DNA from: Lentilactobacillus laojiaonis
GTDB taxonomy: Bacteria > Bacillota > Bacilli > Lactobacillales > Lactobacillaceae
Direction: 5' to 3'
NCBI RefSeq assembly: GCF_020616595.1
Contig: NZ_CP085278.1
Span: forward strand, 248,001-312,000
Length of the DNA stretch: 64,000 nt
This document shows positions 4,623 to 40,521 of the stretch, piece after piece. Below the pieces are notes generated by a model that searched no databases, had not been told where the DNA came from, and was given only the letters and a program-made list of their open reading frames with translations. A program made the translations under genes and the position numbers. How positions within the stretch are numbered: position 1 is the stretch's first letter; the number at the start of each line of letters is the position of its first letter.

Positions 4623-5502
4623 ATTGGTTTAAAGCGTTATTTTTTCGATATGCTTTAGGAGTTAGGTTATTGGTCTTTTTAAAGATTTTACTAAAATAAG
4701 CACTATCGTTAAAACCAGTCATCAGAGCAATATTAGTAATAGGAAGATCGGTTTCTCTTAATAAAGTTTTAGCCTGTTTAACGCGATAACTGGTTAAATA
4801 TTCCATCGGAGTTTGGTGGAAAGTGGCTTTAAAAATTCTGATAATTTCTCGTGAACTCATGCCAATCAATTCAGCAAGATCATCAAGATAAATTTTTTGT
4901 GCATAGTTTTGATGAATAAAAGCCAGCATTTTCTTAGCTTGCTCATTAGGATATGAATTATTAAACAATTCATTGGGACGATTGTCTGCCTTTTTCATAA
5001 TAATTAACCAAGCTTCAGATAGTAAATTTCTAATTTTAAAAGCTTCATTTTGATCTAGCTTATTTAATTGATTAAGGATATCGATATATTCTTTAGTGTA
5101 AGGTTCGCCCTGTTTAAAAATTAATACTTCAATAGATTGATTTTTTAGAATTGGGTTTAAATATCGGGTTTCGAAAATGCTCCGATAATGTCCCGTTAGT
5201 AAAACGGGATGAAATAAATGAGCATACTCAATCGCAGCTTGATCATCGTTAGCGCTACGTTTGGTGTTTATAACGTTAGTATTAATAAAATAACCGTCGC
5301 CTGGCTGGATGGTATAAATTTGATGCGTGGTTTCAATAATAATGGGACCCTTATAAGCAAAATTAAACTCGAGTTCTTCGTGCCAATGCCAAGGAATATC
5401 GTCATTACTTAAATTACGATGGTGCATTGTGTAGGGAAATTCATAAGTAATGCCACTAATACTTTCTATGCCATTTTCATCTTGTATAAACGGTATTTCC
5501 AT
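4621..5502 (-). CDS. AraC family transcriptional regulator
   Basis: A 293-residue two-domain regulator. The N-terminal ~150 residues look like a cupin sensor (HHRNLSNDDIPWHWHEELEFNFAYKGP, with the HWHxE metal-or-ligand motif). The last ~100 residues hold two helix-turn-helix motifs of the AraC/XylS type (IYLDDLAELIGMSSREIIRIFKATFH and LPITNIALMTGFNDSAYFSKIFKKTNNLTPKAYR). It is divergent from the alcohol dehydrogenase/aldo-keto reductase pair and probably regulates it. The 222-base intergenic region contains a 12-base direct repeat of the sort AraC dimers bind. The ligand is unknown. GGAGATG lies upstream of the ATG. Confidence 0.9.
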   Translation of the reverse strand: MEIPFIQDENGIESISGITYEFPYTMHHRNLSNDDIPWHWHEELEFNFAYKGPIIIETTHQIYTIQPGDGYFINTNVINTKRSANDDQAAIEYAHLFHPVLLTGHYRSIFETRYLNPILKNQSIEVLIFKQGEPYTKEYIDILNQLNKLDQNEAFKIRNLLSEAWLIIMKKADNRPNELFNNSYPNEQAKKMLAFIHQNYAQKIYLDDLAELIGMSSREIIRIFKATFHQTPMEYLTSYRVKQAKTLLRETDLPITNIALMTGFNDSAYFSKIFKKTNNLTPKAYRKNNALNQ

Positions 5503-32856: not shown

Positions 32857-32889
32857 AAAAAACAGACACCTTTTAGGTGTCTGTTTTTA
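32857..32889. terminator. Bidirectional terminator after tRNA-Arg
   Basis: The stem AAAAACAGACACC / GGTGTCTGTTTTT has a five-base loop. It also serves the convergent gene ending at 32887. Confidence 0.88.
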
Positions 32890-33441
32890 TTTTGACATAA
32901 TCATTTTTTCAAAAAGTGGTTGCCAATTATATTTAATTGGATCGGGTCCGTCCGTTGTAAGGTAAGCTTTACCATTATCATCAACGTAAAGTGAAAAATC
33001 CAATTTAGCAATTGTATCAATATGCTGCTTTACCCAATCATTAGCCCAACTAATAGTGAACGAATACAAATCTAGATTTGGATAAAAATTAACATCACGT
33101 TTCAAATCACTGATATTAACTGTTTCAGTATCCACGGATTCGATATATGAACTAGTTTCATCATCGAATTTTTGATAACCAACTAAAGCAGTGTTGTTAT
33201 CGTAGTTTAAGTCTCGGACCACATATATGGCGTCGGCAACCGGTTCAATACTATCGACCCCTAAAATCTCATCCTGAATGTGAAACGGTGTTAAATTAGT
33301 TAATGACAAATTATCATTAACTTTAGATTTATGGGTAGAAACTTCTTCAATAGATTGATTGGGAAGTAATTCCATATTTTCAACCATTTGATCAACGGTT
33401 TTAATTTTTTGGAATTCTGTACGATCATTTAAACTATCCAT
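32887..33441 (-). CDS. Uncharacterised protein, copy A of a duplicated family
   Basis: A 184-residue soluble protein I do not recognise. It is clearly related to the product of 34892-35473: both share an IEEx segment, then N-L-x-P-F-x-I-x-D (an SH3-like strand start), YVVRDLNYDNNTALVGYQK versus FVVSGLDYDHHKVEIQTLE, the stretch LYSFTISWANDWVKQH versus VFSFTSIYDAQWAKNN, then KLDF, and an ending PLFEKM versus PLFKKI. A second module of mixed alpha/beta follows the barrel-like centre. The start at 33441 follows GGAGGG; an upstream in-frame start at 33501 has no such site. The function is unknown. Confidence 0.7.
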   Translation of the reverse strand: MDSLNDRTEFQKIKTVDQMVENMELLPNQSIEEVSTHKSKVNDNLSLTNLTPFHIQDEILGVDSIEPVADAIYVVRDLNYDNNTALVGYQKFDDETSSYIESVDTETVNISDLKRDVNFYPNLDLYSFTISWANDWVKQHIDTIAKLDFSLYVDDNGKAYLTTDGPDPIKYNWQPLFEKMIMSK

Positions 33442-33555
33442 AGTCAGCCCTCCTTTTAAAACTTTAAAAGAAATATCATGACTATTTCTAGTCATGGACA
33501 TTATAATACATTGAAAAAATATTAAACTAATTTTGCCTAGCTTAATTGGGAAAAT

Positions 33556-34861: not shown

Positions 34862-34893
34862 AAAAAGATGAAGATAAATTCTTCATCTTTTTT
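34861..34893. terminator. Bidirectional terminator between the 309-aa gene and copy B
   Basis: The stem AAAAAAGATGAAG / CTTCATCTTTTTT lies between the convergent genes and overlaps the last codon of the minus-strand gene. Confidence 0.88.
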
Positions 34894-35473
34894 AGTTTTC
34901 ATGGATTTTTTTAAAGAGTGGACCAAGGTATTCGATTAAGGCGCCTTTGCCGAAGGGATCATCAAAGTATCCTAAAACAATTGTACCGTCAGTATTTTCA
35001 TAAGCCAAAAAATCTAGTTTAACTAATTCATTTAAATTATTTTTAGCCCATTGAGCATCATAGATGGAAGTAAATGAAAAGACATCGACACCACTATAGC
35101 CAGAATGTTTTTGTCTAGTTAATTTATCGATATCTACGGCAATCTTATCACTAGAATTTATTAAATCCGTCCGACCTTGATTATATTCCAGAGTTTGGAT
35201 TTCTACTTTGTGATGATCGTAATCTAACCCTGAAACTACAAAATCATTATGTTCAATTCCCATGGGATTATCCTTGTAAAATACTTGGTCACCAATATCA
35301 AAAGGGATTAAATTAGCCATAACTTTAGATTCGTTATTTAAATTATCAATTTCATGTTTAAAGGGCGTAATTTCTTCGATGTTAACATTACGATACATTT
35401 TAAGAGAATGGATCATCCGCATCGTTCGCTGAATATCAAAAGTTTCTTGAGGCATGTTCTTAGTTCGGATCAT
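34892..35473 (-). CDS. Uncharacterised protein, copy B of a duplicated family
   Basis: A 193-residue soluble protein related along most of its length to the product of 32887-33441. The central block ANLIPFDIGDQVFYKDNPMG has the IGDxV look of a small SH3-type barrel, followed by FVVSGLDYDHHKVEI. The C-terminal half (VDVFSFTSIYDAQWAKNN, VKLDFLAYENTDGTIVLGYF, LIEYLGPLFKKI) matches copy A. The N-termini differ. AGGAGG precedes the ATG. It is divergent from a 151-residue unknown gene. Probably an old duplication; the function is unknown. Confidence 0.7.
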   Translation of the reverse strand: MIRTKNMPQETFDIQRTMRMIHSLKMYRNVNIEEITPFKHEIDNLNNESKVMANLIPFDIGDQVFYKDNPMGIEHNDFVVSGLDYDHHKVEIQTLEYNQGRTDLINSSDKIAVDIDKLTRQKHSGYSGVDVFSFTSIYDAQWAKNNLNELVKLDFLAYENTDGTIVLGYFDDPFGKGALIEYLGPLFKKIHEN

Positions 35474-35647: not shown

Positions 35648-36103
35648 ATGAGTGCATTTTACATTGTTACGATTATTATGTTAGCAGTCGGGGGACTATG
35701 TTTACTTAATAAGCTTCTAAACATGCCTCGTGATGAATTTGTGTATGATAAAAGTTATGATCGAGATATCTTTATCAGTGAGTTTAAAGAAAGCCATGTT
35801 GAAATTATTGATGATATGATTAACAATATCATCTCACAAAAACGAAATTTCACTGATTTTGAAATTAAGGAGTTAGAGTTTATTCTAAAAAAAGTCTTTA
35901 ATAATAAAATTAGTTTTGAACCTCAAATGAACAATTTATGTGTCCGAGCAAATAATAAAGCCTTGTTACTAACTATCGAAAGTGATAATACCGGTTATTA
36001 TTTAGCATTAAATAATGTATGTGTGGATGAAGCTGAAAATTTAATAAAAATCATTAATATGGAATTGTTTGATCAAAGATTTAAATTTACGGTAACCGAA
36101 TAA
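35648..36103 (+). CDS. Uncharacterised single-pass membrane protein, 151 aa
   Basis: The ATG at 35648 lies six bases after GGAG (35638-35641) and opens a 151-residue product; the upstream ATG at 35636 overlaps that site. Residues 2-25 (SAFYIVTIIMLAVGGLCLLNKLL) form one membrane helix. The rest is cytosolic or extracytoplasmic, charged and alpha/beta, with no recognised motif. It is monocistronic, with its own terminator and its promoter in the intergenic region shared with copy B of the duplicated family. Confidence 0.7.
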   Translation: MSAFYIVTIIMLAVGGLCLLNKLLNMPRDEFVYDKSYDRDIFISEFKESHVEIIDDMINNIISQKRNFTDFEIKELEFILKKVFNNKISFEPQMNNLCVRANNKALLLTIESDNTGYYLALNNVCVDEAENLIKIINMELFDQRFKFTVTE

Positions 36104-36136
36104 AAAAAGCTAGGAAAAATTTCCTAGCTTTTTTTA
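36103..36136. terminator. Bidirectional terminator before the L,D-transpeptidase gene
   Basis: The stem AAAAAAGCTAGGAAA / TTTCCTAGCTTTTTT has A and T runs on both sides. Confidence 0.88.
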
Positions 36137-37489
36137 TTAGTAAATAATTACGGGCATATTAGTGTAAGTATATTTCCAAATAATTGGCATTTTTGATGGT
36201 GGGTTATTAATACAACCATGTGAATGATAATTACTACGAGCACTTGGGTTTCCATAAACCGAAGCAGGTTGCCAATCAGAATCATGCAAACCTACACCGT
36301 CTTCGGTAATTGGTACCCAATAGTTAACCTTAGAAGCATATTTAGTCCCATTTGAATTAAGTCCCCTTAATACTGATGGAGATTGTTTATATAAGACATG
36401 GAACAAACCAGTTGGAGTTTCGGAATTTACCAAGCCACTCATGACAGGAATTGTAGCAATTAATTTATGATTTTTATAAACGTATTCATATAGGGTGGTG
36501 AGATTAACTTCAACGTAATTACCGTCGCTTAATTTTGTTCCTGCTTGTAGATAACCAGTACCGGTAATATGTGAGGCTTTATAGGTAGTCTTTTTACTAG
36601 TCCAGGCGTTAATAATAGAGTTGGTTTCAGCAGTTGCATCAGCTGTCCAACCATAATTAGATTCCGCGGAAGTGTTAGTAGTGATTACTTTACCGGAATG
36701 AGTTTTAAATTTAATGGCTTTATGCATGGTTTGATTTTTATTAATAATCTTATTGATTGTGGTTGTTAATTTAGAATGATTAATTTGCCAGCCACCATTT
36801 TTTAAACTTCCACTAATTAAATATTTTTGAGGACTTAGTTTATATGTATGATTATTAATCTTATAAACTAAGGAATGCTGCAACGCCCATTTCATATTGT
36901 TGGCAGCTACTTGATTTTTTTTAGCTTGGACTTTATTTTCACCTAAATATTCAGCCGTAATATTAAGATTTGAAATATTATCTTTTTTCTGATTAATAGC
37001 TTTTTTAAGTGCAGAAACATTAATATAGTTTCCCGGTTGGGCTTTAATTTTTATTAATTTGTTATTTTTAAGCTTATAAGTTTCTGGCTTGGAAATTTTT
37101 CGGTTAAGGTTTACCTGATTAACCCAAGTAATTAATTGACTAGTACCATTTTTAGTAGCTAAATCTATTTGCTTAGTTTGGCTAGCGTTAACGACTAATT
37201 TTTTATTAGTGTGCGATTTTTTAAGTAGGGGTTTAAGCTCTTGCGGACTAATTGTTAGATCAGTTTGGACATCAATTTTTTTAGTTAGATTTTTATCTTT
37301 TAAGATTATTTGACGTTGGTTGGCAGTTTGATTAAGTTTTTTAGCAGCTTGTTTGGCTGTTAAATTGGCCACACTGACGTTATTAATTTTAGTATTGAGG
37401 GCAAAATGATTTTTATACCAAGTGGTATATCCCAGACCGCCAATACCAAGGATAGCGATCGTGCTAACGATTAATGTTTTGATTTTCAT
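36137..37489 (-). CDS. L,D-transpeptidase (YkuD) with peptidoglycan-binding domain
   Basis: A 450-residue enzyme anchored by an N-terminal helix (LIVSTIAILGIGGLGYTTW). Residues ~30-300 form the repeated peptidoglycan-binding region seen in Firmicutes YkuD proteins (vancomycin-resistance-like domain, KINNVSVANLTAKQAAKKLN). The YkuD domain ends the protein with the catalytic His424-Gly-Cys426 in YHSHGCINN and Asp in VGLHDSDWQ. It makes 3-3 cross-links or attaches proteins in the wall outside the membrane. AAGGAG lies before the ATG. Monocistronic. Confidence 0.93.
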   Translation of the reverse strand: MKIKTLIVSTIAILGIGGLGYTTWYKNHFALNTKINNVSVANLTAKQAAKKLNQTANQRQIILKDKNLTKKIDVQTDLTISPQELKPLLKKSHTNKKLVVNASQTKQIDLATKNGTSQLITWVNQVNLNRKISKPETYKLKNNKLIKIKAQPGNYINVSALKKAINQKKDNISNLNITAEYLGENKVQAKKNQVAANNMKWALQHSLVYKINNHTYKLSPQKYLISGSLKNGGWQINHSKLTTTINKIINKNQTMHKAIKFKTHSGKVITTNTSAESNYGWTADATAETNSIINAWTSKKTTYKASHITGTGYLQAGTKLSDGNYVEVNLTTLYEYVYKNHKLIATIPVMSGLVNSETPTGLFHVLYKQSPSVLRGLNSNGTKYASKVNYWVPITEDGVGLHDSDWQPASVYGNPSARSNYHSHGCINNPPSKMPIIWKYTYTNMPVIIY

Positions 37490-37562
37490 GGAAAGCTCCT
37501 TATAATAAATTGAATCTATTACATCATACCAAATTTATTATACGACATTCAAAGTTATTTAA

Positions 37563-37607
37563 AAAAGGATCTGCTAAAACCATGATTAGTTTTAACAGAT
37601 CCTTTTA
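37563..37607 (-). terminator. Terminator of the 48-residue gene
   Basis: A long stem, AAAGGATCTG and TAAAAC with GTTTTA and CAGATCCTTT (one bulge), lies at the end of the small gene and overlaps its stop codon. Confidence 0.8.
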
Positions 37608-37751
37608 CATCATTAGCATCGCAATGCCCGCTAATAAGATTATCATTAAGCAAGCGACAGCTAGTAATTTAACACCAATTTTTTTACTATAAACCCCGTT
37701 AGGAAAACGATGGTGGTTAAAGGGCATAGTATGTAAATGTCTTTGACCCAT
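37605..37751 (-). CDS. Small single-pass membrane protein, 48 aa
   Basis: On the minus strand an ATG at 37749-37751, with GAAAGGAT as ribosome site, opens 48 codons ending in TAA at 37605-37607. The N-terminal half is basic and His-rich (MGQRHLHTMPFNHHRFPNGV); the C-terminal half is one hydrophobic helix (GVKLLAVACLMIILLAGIAM). The family is not recognised. It lies directly behind a structured RNA leader with its own promoter, so its expression is probably controlled by conditional termination. Confidence 0.65.
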   Translation of the reverse strand: MGQRHLHTMPFNHHRFPNGVYSKKIGVKLLAVACLMIILLAGIAMLMM

Positions 37752-37771
37752 ATAAAAATCCTTTCAAATAA

Positions 37772-37879
37772 GAAAACCCCCCACAAATAAATGTGAGGGG
37801 ACAAAGAGCTGTCAAAATAGACCTCTTATGTATTAAGCAAACTAAATCATATGTGTGATAGGAGTTATTCAACTTCTAT
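37772..37879 (-). ncRNA. Structured leader or small RNA with terminator/attenuator
   Basis: Read on the minus strand from an expected transcription start near 37879, three hairpins occur in order. The first is ATAG-AGTT/AACT-CTAT (37858-37879). The second is AAGAG-GTC/GAC-CTCTT (37804-37827). The third is a GC-rich terminator, CCCC-CACA/TGTG-GGGG followed by GGTTTTCTTATTT (37772-37800). The terminator lies 20 bases before the start of a 48-residue gene. The layout is that of a riboswitch or attenuator, or a stand-alone small RNA. It does not match any riboswitch class I recognise. The 30-base linker between hairpins 1 and 2 is AT-rich. Confidence 0.6.
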
Positions 37880-37885
37880 ATTTAC

Positions 37886-37913
37886 AGTATATAATTTTAT
37901 GAATTAATTGCAA
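37886..37913 (-). promoter_or_regulatory. Promoter of the structured leader
   Basis: On the minus strand TTGCAA (37908-37913) and TATACT (37886-37891) are 16 bases apart, between the gtrA stop and the first hairpin. Confidence 0.6.
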
Positions 37914-37922
37914 TTAATTAGC

Positions 37923-38336
37923 CTACTTTTTAAATACTGCTAATTTTGACCAGAAATAATTGATGATAATCACTACAATATTATCGATGATTTTAACAAT
38001 AATTTCGTTACCATCTAATAAAGAAATCCCAACCCACAAGATAATTACTTCAAATCCATACGATAAAACTCGGCCTGCATAAAATGAAAACATTTGTTTT
38101 AATAGGTGGGTAAAAGAGTTAGAGGTTGCATGGAAAACATAGGCTTTATTAGAAATAAAAGCTATGAAGACACTGATAAACCAAGCAATCAAATTATTAA
38201 CTTGGTAATTTAAATTAGTAAAATGCTCTAAAATAGCAAATACTCCAATGTTAATAACGGTGGTAATAACTCCCCAAAATAGATAGGCAATGATTTCATT
38301 ATATTTTTGGTAGCTATCTTTTAGTTTTTGTATCAT
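37923..38336 (-). CDS. GtrA family membrane protein
   Basis: A 137-residue GtrA/DPMS flippase-like protein with four membrane helices (YLFWGVITTVINIGVFAIL; LIAWFISVFIAFISNKAYVF; FYAGRVLSYGFEVIILWVGI; VVIIINYFWSKLAVF), the conserved FxxxKxxVF pattern near the end included. It probably flips an undecaprenyl-phosphate-linked sugar made by the upstream GT2 enzyme. The ATG at 38334-38336 overlaps the stop of the upstream gene; its ribosome site GAGGAAAAG lies inside that gene. The pair resembles GtcA/CsbB-type units that glycosylate teichoic acids. Confidence 0.88.
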   Translation of the reverse strand: MIQKLKDSYQKYNEIIAYLFWGVITTVINIGVFAILEHFTNLNYQVNNLIAWFISVFIAFISNKAYVFHATSNSFTHLLKQMFSFYAGRVLSYGFEVIILWVGISLLDGNEIIVKIIDNIVVIIINYFWSKLAVFKK

Positions 38337-38337
38337 A

Positions 38338-39279
38338 TTATTTCTTTTCCTCAATAATATATTCAGGACGATGCTTAGTTTCTAGATAGATCTTGCCAAT
38401 ATAATTACCTAAAATTCCTAGGAAGAGAAGTTGTACACCACTCATAAATAATAGGATTGAAACAATTGAAGCCCAACCACTAACTGCGTTACCGTAAATT
38501 AAGGCTCTAATTACTACAAAAATTAAGGCAATTAAAGAAATTAAACAAACAATTACTCCACTAAAGGTAGCCATTTTTAAAGGCACGTCTGAAAAATCAA
38601 CTACTGCTTCGAGTGAGTATTGGAATAATTTATAAAATGACCATGAGGTTTCACCAGCTGATCTAGCTACTCCTTCAAATTCAATATACTTGGTTTCAAA
38701 ACCAACCCAAGCAAAGATACCCTTACTAAAACGATTATATTCAGGTAGTGATAAAACAGCATCAACATATTTACGAGTCATTAAGCGGTAATCTCGAACG
38801 TTTTGTTTCATTTTAACTTCTGCCATTTTATTGATCATCTTGTAAAAAGTTGAAGATAGGAATGACTTAAATGATTTTTCATCACGAGTAGTTTGAACAC
38901 AGCCAACACATTCATATTCTTTACTTTCTAGAATAGGAACCATTTGAAGTAAGAGCTCTGGTGGATCTTGTAAATCTACATCCATTACGGCTACATAGTC
39001 GCCTTGGGCATTTTTTAAACCGGCTGAAAGTGCAGATTCTTTACCAAAGTTTCTTGAAAATGATAGGTAGTGGACGGTGTCAGGATGTTGATTGTGTAGA
39101 TTACGCATCACATCTAACGTTTTATCACTAGATCCATCATTAACAAATAAGTATTCCGGTACATAGGTTTCAGTTGATTGATTATTTAGTTTTTCAAAAA
39201 CCTTTTCCGTTGTATCGTAAAAAATGTTGATGGTTGGTTCCTCATTGTAGCAGGGGACAATTAAACTAATTGTTTTCAA
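38338..39279 (-). CDS. GT2 glycosyltransferase (GtrB/CsbB-like, polyprenyl-phosphate sugar synthase)
   Basis: A 313-residue protein: a GT2 catalytic domain with SLIVPCYNEEPTINIFYD at the N-terminus, DxD-type motif VMDVDLQDPPELL (about 93-106) and two C-terminal membrane helices (FSGVIVCLISLIALIFVVI; SIVSILLFMSGVQLLFLGILG), the classic GtrB/Ykc-type topology. It transfers a sugar from a nucleotide donor to undecaprenyl phosphate on the inner membrane face. It is translationally coupled to gtrA. The start is a TTG behind GGAGG. The sugar is unknown; lipoteichoic or wall teichoic acid is the likely acceptor. Confidence 0.92.
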   Translation of the reverse strand: MKTISLIVPCYNEEPTINIFYDTTEKVFEKLNNQSTETYVPEYLFVNDGSSDKTLDVMRNLHNQHPDTVHYLSFSRNFGKESALSAGLKNAQGDYVAVMDVDLQDPPELLLQMVPILESKEYECVGCVQTTRDEKSFKSFLSSTFYKMINKMAEVKMKQNVRDYRLMTRKYVDAVLSLPEYNRFSKGIFAWVGFETKYIEFEGVARSAGETSWSFYKLFQYSLEAVVDFSDVPLKMATFSGVIVCLISLIALIFVVIRALIYGNAVSGWASIVSILLFMSGVQLLFLGILGNYIGKIYLETKHRPEYIIEEKK

Positions 39280-39294
39280 AATAATTCCTCCAAA

Positions 39295-40521
39295 TTATAC
39301 CCAATTACCATTTCGCATAATTGGTATTTTTTGACCGTCTTTAGTAATACCGTCAATATTCATTTTGTTAGATCCAATCATGAAATCGACATGGATTTCA
39401 GATTGATTTAATCCAACTTCTTTTAGTTGGTTGGCATCCATATTAGTACCATTTTGAATACTAAATGGATAAGCGGCACCTAATGCTAAATGATCGGATG
39501 CATTTTCATCGAACAATGTATTATAAAAAATTGTTTTAGTTTTAGCAATAGGAGAATCCTCAGGTACTAGTGCAATTTCACCTAGTGAGCTAGCACCGAC
39601 ATCTGTTTTTATCAATTGATTTAAGAAATCGGCTCCTTGGTCAGCAGTAGCTTTAATTACGTGGCCATCTTTAAAAGTTAATTTAATATTGGTAATTAAC
39701 TGACCATTGTTACTGAGTGGATAAGTTGCAGCTACTACTCCGTCAATTCGGCGATAGTCCGGAGCAGTGAAAACTTCCTCTGTAGGAATATTGGGAACAA
39801 AGAAGTTGCCCGCTTTATCATTAGATCCGGCGCCTTCCCAAAGATGATTTTCGGGTAATCCGATAGTTAAATCAGTTTGGTCTGATCGATAATGCAAGGC
39901 ATCAAATTGATAATCGTTTAACCACTTAGCTCGTTGGTTTAAGAACTTAATATGTTCTTGCCAAGCTCGATTAGGTTCATCTAAGGTAACTCGAGAAATA
40001 GTTAAAATAGATTCCCATAATTTATTAAGTGCTTCTTGATTTGATAAATTAGGATAGACTTTTTGAGCCCATTCCAATGATGCTCCCGCTACTACTAACC
40101 AACTAATATCATTATTCATGGTTGCTTTAGTAACTGGTTGTTTTACTTTAGATTGAGCAGTTTGTGAGATATGTATTCTTTGAGGATCGATTCCGTTTAA
40201 AGCTTCTGGTGAAGCCGATAGTAGGGAAATTCGACTGGCATGTTTATCCATCAATTCTTTAGCGGCAACTTTTTCAAACTCGTAGGGATGTTGTAAACGA
40301 TCCACCGAAGTATTTTGTAAATATTGTCGTTGAATTATCGGATCATTCCATTTTAAAATAACTTCATTAGCTTTTGCCGCATATGCTGCTTCCACAATCA
40401 ATCTAGCTAGTGGAGCTTGATCAACATCTGCATATAAAATAATGGTTTGTCCGGGTTGAACATTTATACCAGTTTTAATAATTAAATCAGCATATTTCTT
40501 TAGTAAGTTATTTAAATCCAT
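39295..40521 (-). CDS. Aminopeptidase, M29 family (PepS/AmpS type)
   Basis: A 408-residue metallo-aminopeptidase. M29 signatures are visible: TDLTIGLPENHLWEGAGSN (metal ligands), NIPTEEVFTAPDYRRIDGVVAAT (ETTP-like region), ALGAAYPF near 345 and the final EIHVDFMIGSNKMNIDGITKDG with His and Asp ligands. It removes N-terminal residues from peptides in the cytosol, part of the proteolytic system of lactic acid bacteria. CGAGGTA precedes the ATG. It lies 15 bases upstream of the GT2 gene on the same strand, so it may share the transcript without a functional link. Confidence 0.92.
   Translation of the reverse strand: MDLNNLLKKYADLIIKTGINVQPGQTIILYADVDQAPLARLIVEAAYAAKANEVILKWNDPIIQRQYLQNTSVDRLQHPYEFEKVAAKELMDKHASRISLLSASPEALNGIDPQRIHISQTAQSKVKQPVTKATMNNDISWLVVAGASLEWAQKVYPNLSNQEALNKLWESILTISRVTLDEPNRAWQEHIKFLNQRAKWLNDYQFDALHYRSDQTDLTIGLPENHLWEGAGSNDKAGNFFVPNIPTEEVFTAPDYRRIDGVVAATYPLSNNGQLITNIKLTFKDGHVIKATADQGADFLNQLIKTDVGASSLGEIALVPEDSPIAKTKTIFYNTLFDENASDHLALGAAYPFSIQNGTNMDANQLKEVGLNQSEIHVDFMIGSNKMNIDGITKDGQKIPIMRNGNWV

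Follow-up and report, generated by a model that had tools for sequence, protein, structure and literature searches.

The locus described here lies in a 64,000-nucleotide stretch of Lentilactobacillus laojiaonis DNA, which as a whole is called the window, and which stems from a genome of 1.24 Mb that is 88.8% complete (G000 in the comparisons below). A gene for a family 2 glycosyltransferase and a gtrA-like gene overlap each other on the minus strand, and a short element, followed by a gene for a small membrane protein, is found behind them. In the order of the minus strand, the features are as follows:

38338 to 39279, minus strand: gene for a family 2 glycosyltransferase (GT2; PF00535, E 2.1e-29), overlapping gtrA
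37923 to 38345, minus strand: gtrA-like gene with a GtrA/DPMS transmembrane domain (PF04138, E 1.2e-19), stop codon at 37923-37925
37886 to 37913, minus strand: promoter-like site TTGCAA-16-TATACT by sequence match, with TTGCAA at 37913-37908 and TATACT at 37891-37886
37858 to 37879, minus strand: hairpin 1, with four pairs, one A.C mismatch and four further pairs, at the expected transcription start
37832 to 37857, minus strand: AT-rich, single-stranded and poorly conserved linker
37801 to 37831, minus strand: hairpin 2, ACAUAAGAG ... CUCUUUGU, arms identical in three species, loop variable
37770 to 37800, minus strand: intrinsic terminator, CCCCUCACA-UUUAUU-UGUGGGGGG followed by TTTTCTT, stem-loop at 37800-37777
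37605 to 37751, minus strand: gene for a 48-aa single-helix membrane protein, ATG at 37751, ribosome site GAAAGGA at 37765-37759

A sequence-only reading of this region had already described the promoter, the two hairpins, the AT-rich linker and the terminator, as well as the ribosome site and the start of the 48-aa protein, and the letters of all of them are present at these places. The candidate RNA gene comprises about 105 bases directly 3' of gtrA, and 25 nt separate its terminator from the start codon of the 48-aa gene in the window. A YkuD L,D-transpeptidase gene follows downstream, beyond the 48-aa gene and the terminator hairpin of that gene. The latter hairpin (37560-37606) is long and near-perfect, carries A and T tracts, has a folding energy of -25.3 kcal/mol and is likely a two-way terminator. 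At another site of the window, a run of unnamed genes includes two genes for paralogous proteins (32887-33501 and 34892-35473, both on the minus strand; 26% identity over 177 aa, E 2e-17), and neither of these proteins has a Pfam match.

In the window alone, the terminator is the only part of the element that beats shuffled sequences. The whole leader folds better than its shuffles (z -2.76, with 1 of 200 as good), and the leader minus the terminator, which itself folds with -16.3 kcal/mol, is an ordinary fold (z -0.19, with 75 of 200 shuffles as good). The mere presence of a terminator is unremarkable, as one terminator-like site was found in 36000-39500 and shuffles of this region give 1.9 +/- 1.2. 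Hairpin 1 is weak in the window, where the fold of the first 30 nt is equalled by 91 of 1000 shuffled versions, and the promoter match alone means nothing, because sites of 9/12 quality are at chance level, the 10 observed being rarer than the 18.1 +/- 4.3 of the shuffles. Judged by the genome comparisons described below, it is the conservation in relatives, and not the statistics of the window, that lifts the element above chance. The earlier remark that the structure matches no known class was borne out by Rfam 15, which gave no match at gathering score at the element in the window; sub-threshold matches there were at chance level (best E 0.78), and PyrG_leader was rejected as a candidate at 22.8 bits versus the 65 needed, which again is chance level. 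Also in the loci L117, L121 and L065, no Rfam 15 match was located at the element. The L. senioris locus L121 contains a match to the PyrR binding site at 5172-5277 on the plus strand, which reaches 50 bits versus a gathering score of 54. A description of the element was not found in the literature at the level of titles and abstract beginnings, which is no proof of its absence from print.

Among 24 Lentilactobacillus genomes, the element pattern is present in three, namely G000 and two relatives (G007 and G015) whose elements are letter-identical to two Lentilactobacillus senioris records. Directly behind gtrA, both relatives have TTGTAA-17-TATTAT, a hairpin, a linker, ACATAAGAGG-loop-CTCTTTGT, a terminator (CCCTCAC-TTCG-GTGGGGG, -12.4 kcal/mol in each) and TTTTCTT. 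Local alignment of the element with the post-gtrA sequence scored 57 for G007 and 54 for G015, the best of 2000 shuffles scoring 32 in each case, and when 1520 tiles of the 64-kb window were ranked, the two tiles that overlap the element came first, followed by tiles scoring 31 and 32. In the core alignment, 48 of 70 columns are invariant across the three species. The neighboring gene gives the scale for this conservation: in gtrA, G007 and G015 have different letters at 51 of 138 third codon positions, and between the window and G007 the differences amount to 79 of 130 third positions and 21 of 30 fourfold sites. Within the element, G007 and G015 differ at none of 58 positions in the hexamers, the hairpin-2 arms, the terminator and the T tract, and they differ at 4 of 19 positions in the linker, 2 of 10 in the hairpin-2 loop and 2 of 18 in the hairpin-1 arms, in a partition that was drawn by hand after the sequences had been seen and that favours structure. 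None of the 12 hexamer positions of the promoter differ, and 9 of the 17 positions of the spacer between the hexamers do; the hexamer pattern common to the window and the relatives is TTGYAA/TATNNT at the same position. At the level of the aligned letters, this pattern of conservation is the expected trace of a promoter plus a structured RNA. The number of independent lineages that carry the element is only two.

Covarying pairs had been proposed as a check on the hairpins, and here the two hairpins part. For hairpin 1, a hand alignment of the window with G007 keeps eight pairs, six of which are changed on both sides, in a pair table that was drawn after the sequences had been seen and that favours structure; the central mismatch is present in both genomes, and G015 lacks one of the pairs but can pair at the mismatch position. 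The absence of covariation that the sequence-only reading had named as a refutation therefore does not apply to hairpin 1. Hairpin 1 is strong in the relatives (0 of 1000 shuffles as good in G007, 1 of 1000 in G015), and since in both of them it follows the -10 at a distance of only 3 nt, its outer pairs may precede the transcription start there. The outer pair of the terminator is C-G in the window and U-A in G007 and G015. Hairpin 2 gave no covariation, its arms being letter-for-letter invariant in the three species; this invariance is silent on pairing, yet it says much for a constraint on the letters. The lowest-energy fold of G015 is without hairpin 2, as another pairing is preferred. G000, G007 and G015 each contain a single copy of the sequence ACATAAGAGG. 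Inspection by eye revealed no conserved small peptide in the element, as no frame stays open in all three species.

The distribution of the element appears to be narrow. A DNA search with the whole element gave matches in 57 of 60 genomes at E <= 1, which, the window aside and among the matches listed, were short pieces of at most 36.5 bits. With a covariance model, 105 of 397 genomes of the family matched at E <= 0.1, and strong matches were obtained in three of the 397; these top three scored 92, 91.5 and 75 bits and the next best 34.2 bits (E 9.5e-6), whereby the model had been built from those same three sequences, so that its scores are not independent of them and the shuffle alignment is the independent test. 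The best of the lower-scoring matches mainly cover the terminator hairpin and were taken as unrelated, and within the genus no further genome exceeded 25 bits. The family genomes are an even sample of a larger group, and strict filters were applied in the scoring; distant relatives may therefore be missed. When 84,980 species genomes were scanned for the pattern, nine stretches were found, of which two are from L. senioris and seven lack an element in their surroundings; the same scan of viral contigs found two stretches, both unrelated. A search for GtrA in the species-genome contig collection gave no match.

We consider the element to be, with moderate confidence, a small-RNA gene of about 105 nt that lies in the 3' region of gtrA, has a promoter of its own and shares its terminator with the genes in front of it. 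The genome comparison establishes that the element is homologous and has the same place in three genomes, that its conservation is selective, and that it is not linked to the small gene. From a putative sigma-A-type promoter just behind the gtrA stop codon, transcription would start near 37879, and the candidate RNA would comprise hairpin 1, the linker and the conserved hairpin 2 and would terminate at 37776-37770. Most GT2-gtrA transcripts would end there as well; what the DNA itself offers on this point is one strong hairpin with a T tract that is kept in three species, probably a terminator of the small RNA and the GT2-gtrA transcript alike. In the window, the ancestral small gene would still be located behind this terminator, and polymerase that reads through would transcribe it. 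The sequence-only reading had named a small RNA with a readthrough gene as one of its options, and this option fits.

The main rival to the small RNA reading is a plain gtrA 3' UTR, that is, a conserved 3' UTR of the GT2-gtrA mRNA that has no promoter of its own and that ends and protects the mRNA or yields a processed 3' fragment. The terminator is indeed the part with the best folding support, promoter-like matches of the quality seen here are common by chance, and all that G002, which groups with these genomes in one clade, has behind gtrA is a terminator hairpin that is similar in sequence (covariance model score 21.8 bits). However, the hexamers are unchanged between G007 and G015 despite the diverged spacer, TTGYAA/TATNNT is found in the window as well, and the letters of hairpin 2 are kept more strictly than the protection of a 3' end requires. 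We regard the plain 3' UTR as unlikely, albeit as an explanation that has to be taken seriously.

The 48-aa protein is real and belongs to an unnamed family. Its profile matches 21 of the 24 genomes of the genus, the exceptions being G002, G007 and G015, and outside the genus eight weak matches were obtained, the majority of which fall within long or broken frames. NCBIfam gave no match for any of 18 family members, and Pfam gave one weak match for one of the 18 (E 0.038). The family consists of single-helix membrane proteins of 45-50 aa (the window and L002-L016, L019, L021, L022 and L081), and 18 aligned members have in common F16, G19, G26, L29, L30, A44 and a Met as last residue. In 19 relatives, including G017 and leaving out G013, the small gene starts 0-42 nt after gtrA; in the window this gap is 171 nt because the element sits there. 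Element and small gene occur together in one genome (G000), the element alone in two and the gene alone in 20 of 24; correspondingly, of the 21 genus genomes with the small gene, 20 gave no element by either the pattern or the covariance model. The place of the 48-aa gene behind the element is taken in G007 and G015 by a convergent permease gene (PF02133), and there is no ORF of at least 40 aa on the gtrA strand between the element and the end of the permease gene. As the element exists without the small gene and the small gene without a detected element, the element is not the leader of the small gene.

This speaks against control of the 48-aa gene by a riboswitch or an attenuator, which the sequence-only reading had offered as its other option. 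In favour of such control, the terminator of the window does lie 25 nt before the start codon and behind a promoter-like site. Two genomes have the element with the permease gene instead of the 48-aa gene, and in 19 genomes the gene is found right behind gtrA and the element is not detected. Furthermore, pairing of the terminator 5' arm with upstream sequence, which was calculated as anti-terminator for the three species, gains 0.0, -0.8 and -2.7 kcal/mol versus -16.3, -12.4 and -12.4 kcal/mol for the terminator, which is no convincing anti-terminator, and no Rfam class applies. We judge such a control element to be highly improbable, and the interpretation given in the sequence-only reading is, overall, partly supported. 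Still less probable is a regulation at the DNA level, in which inverted repeats at the promoter would be operators and hairpin 1 as an RNA would be incidental: a perfect 18-bp palindrome, AATTAATTGCAATTAATT at 37919-37902, covers the -35 of the candidate small RNA, and in L. senioris, where hairpin 1 starts so close to the -10, an inverted repeat GTCA-GGAA...TTCC-TGAC is positioned at the expected transcription start, but the palindrome is not seen behind gtrA in G007 and G015, hairpin 2 is left unexplained, and operators would add to the small RNA reading rather than replace it.

If the element is indeed a small-RNA gene, then its RNA would probably be a trans-acting one that base-pairs or binds a protein via the sequence-conserved hairpin 2. 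A target search that covered perfect complements of 9-10 nt to the hairpin-2 arms only revealed no perfect complement of the 10-mer ACATAAGAGG in G000, G007 and G015, and for 14 other GCTCTTTGT sites no complement at a start codon that is kept between species. Small RNAs with such a genomic layout have precedents. According to the accessible text of PMC6586332, ArgX of Lactococcus lactis is a small RNA of 66 nt that is encoded immediately behind argR, has its own promoter with the -10 TATACT and a terminator common to the upstream mRNA, was proven by northern blot and by mutation of the -10, and acts on the arc operon; when its authors looked in more distant bacteria, no homologues turned up (PMC6586332). 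The candidate described here resembles ArgX as described in that text in its position directly behind a protein gene, in the letters TATACT of its putative -10, in the probably shared terminator and in the narrow spread, a likeness that concerns the layout and not the RNA sequence. It differs from ArgX in its length (about 105 nt versus 66 nt) and in its unrelated host gene, and it is a candidate deduced from DNA sequence alone. ArgX shows that lactic acid bacteria make use of an own promoter and a shared terminator behind a gene. The same text names DapZ of Salmonella, a 3'-UTR small RNA with its own promoter (PMC6586332), which likewise has its promoter at the end of a coding gene and a terminator that is shared with the mRNA of this gene; DapZ differs from the element here in its known role, the regulation of ABC peptide uptake systems. 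In each of G000, G007 and G015, the candidate immediately follows gtrA and is encoded on the strand of that gene, which is the layout of ArgX and DapZ. As to the host operon, the accessible parts of PMC7389260 and PMC8035078 deal with GtcA/GtrA-type teichoic acid glycosylation operons, and by their domains the neighboring GT2 and GtrA genes belong to this type; unlike the comparison with ArgX, this one concerns the operon and not the RNA. The accessible part of PMC13109727 does not mention GtrA.

A tree of GtrA and GT2 from 22 genomes groups G000, G002, G007 and G015 in one clade with a support of 0.999; G003, which is without GT2 in the stretch examined, and G013, which is without a gtrA match, are absent from this tree. 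The genomes of the clade are small, with sizes of 1.2-1.8 Mb. With this grouping, one gain in the ancestor and one loss in G002 suffice to explain the distribution of the element. By parsimony, the ancestor of the clade would have gained the element between gtrA and the small gene; G002 and L. senioris would later have lost the small gene, and G002 the RNA part as well. A more elaborate history, which we put forward as a speculation with little probability, would be that a lineage-specific RNA arose in the gtrA operon, that its terminator cut the ancestral membrane-protein gene off from gtrA, and that this gene was then lost in three of the four species, with the RNA partly controlling cell-wall glycosylation.

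If the element is transcribed, Rfam 15 lacks an entry for this small-RNA gene. The kind of RNA is already known, and the surprise would therefore be moderate. The genus offers a natural comparison, as there are relatives with the RNA only, relatives with the small gene only, and one with both. The 48-aa protein, being encoded directly behind gtrA across the genus, is a plausible accessory part of the glycosylation system.
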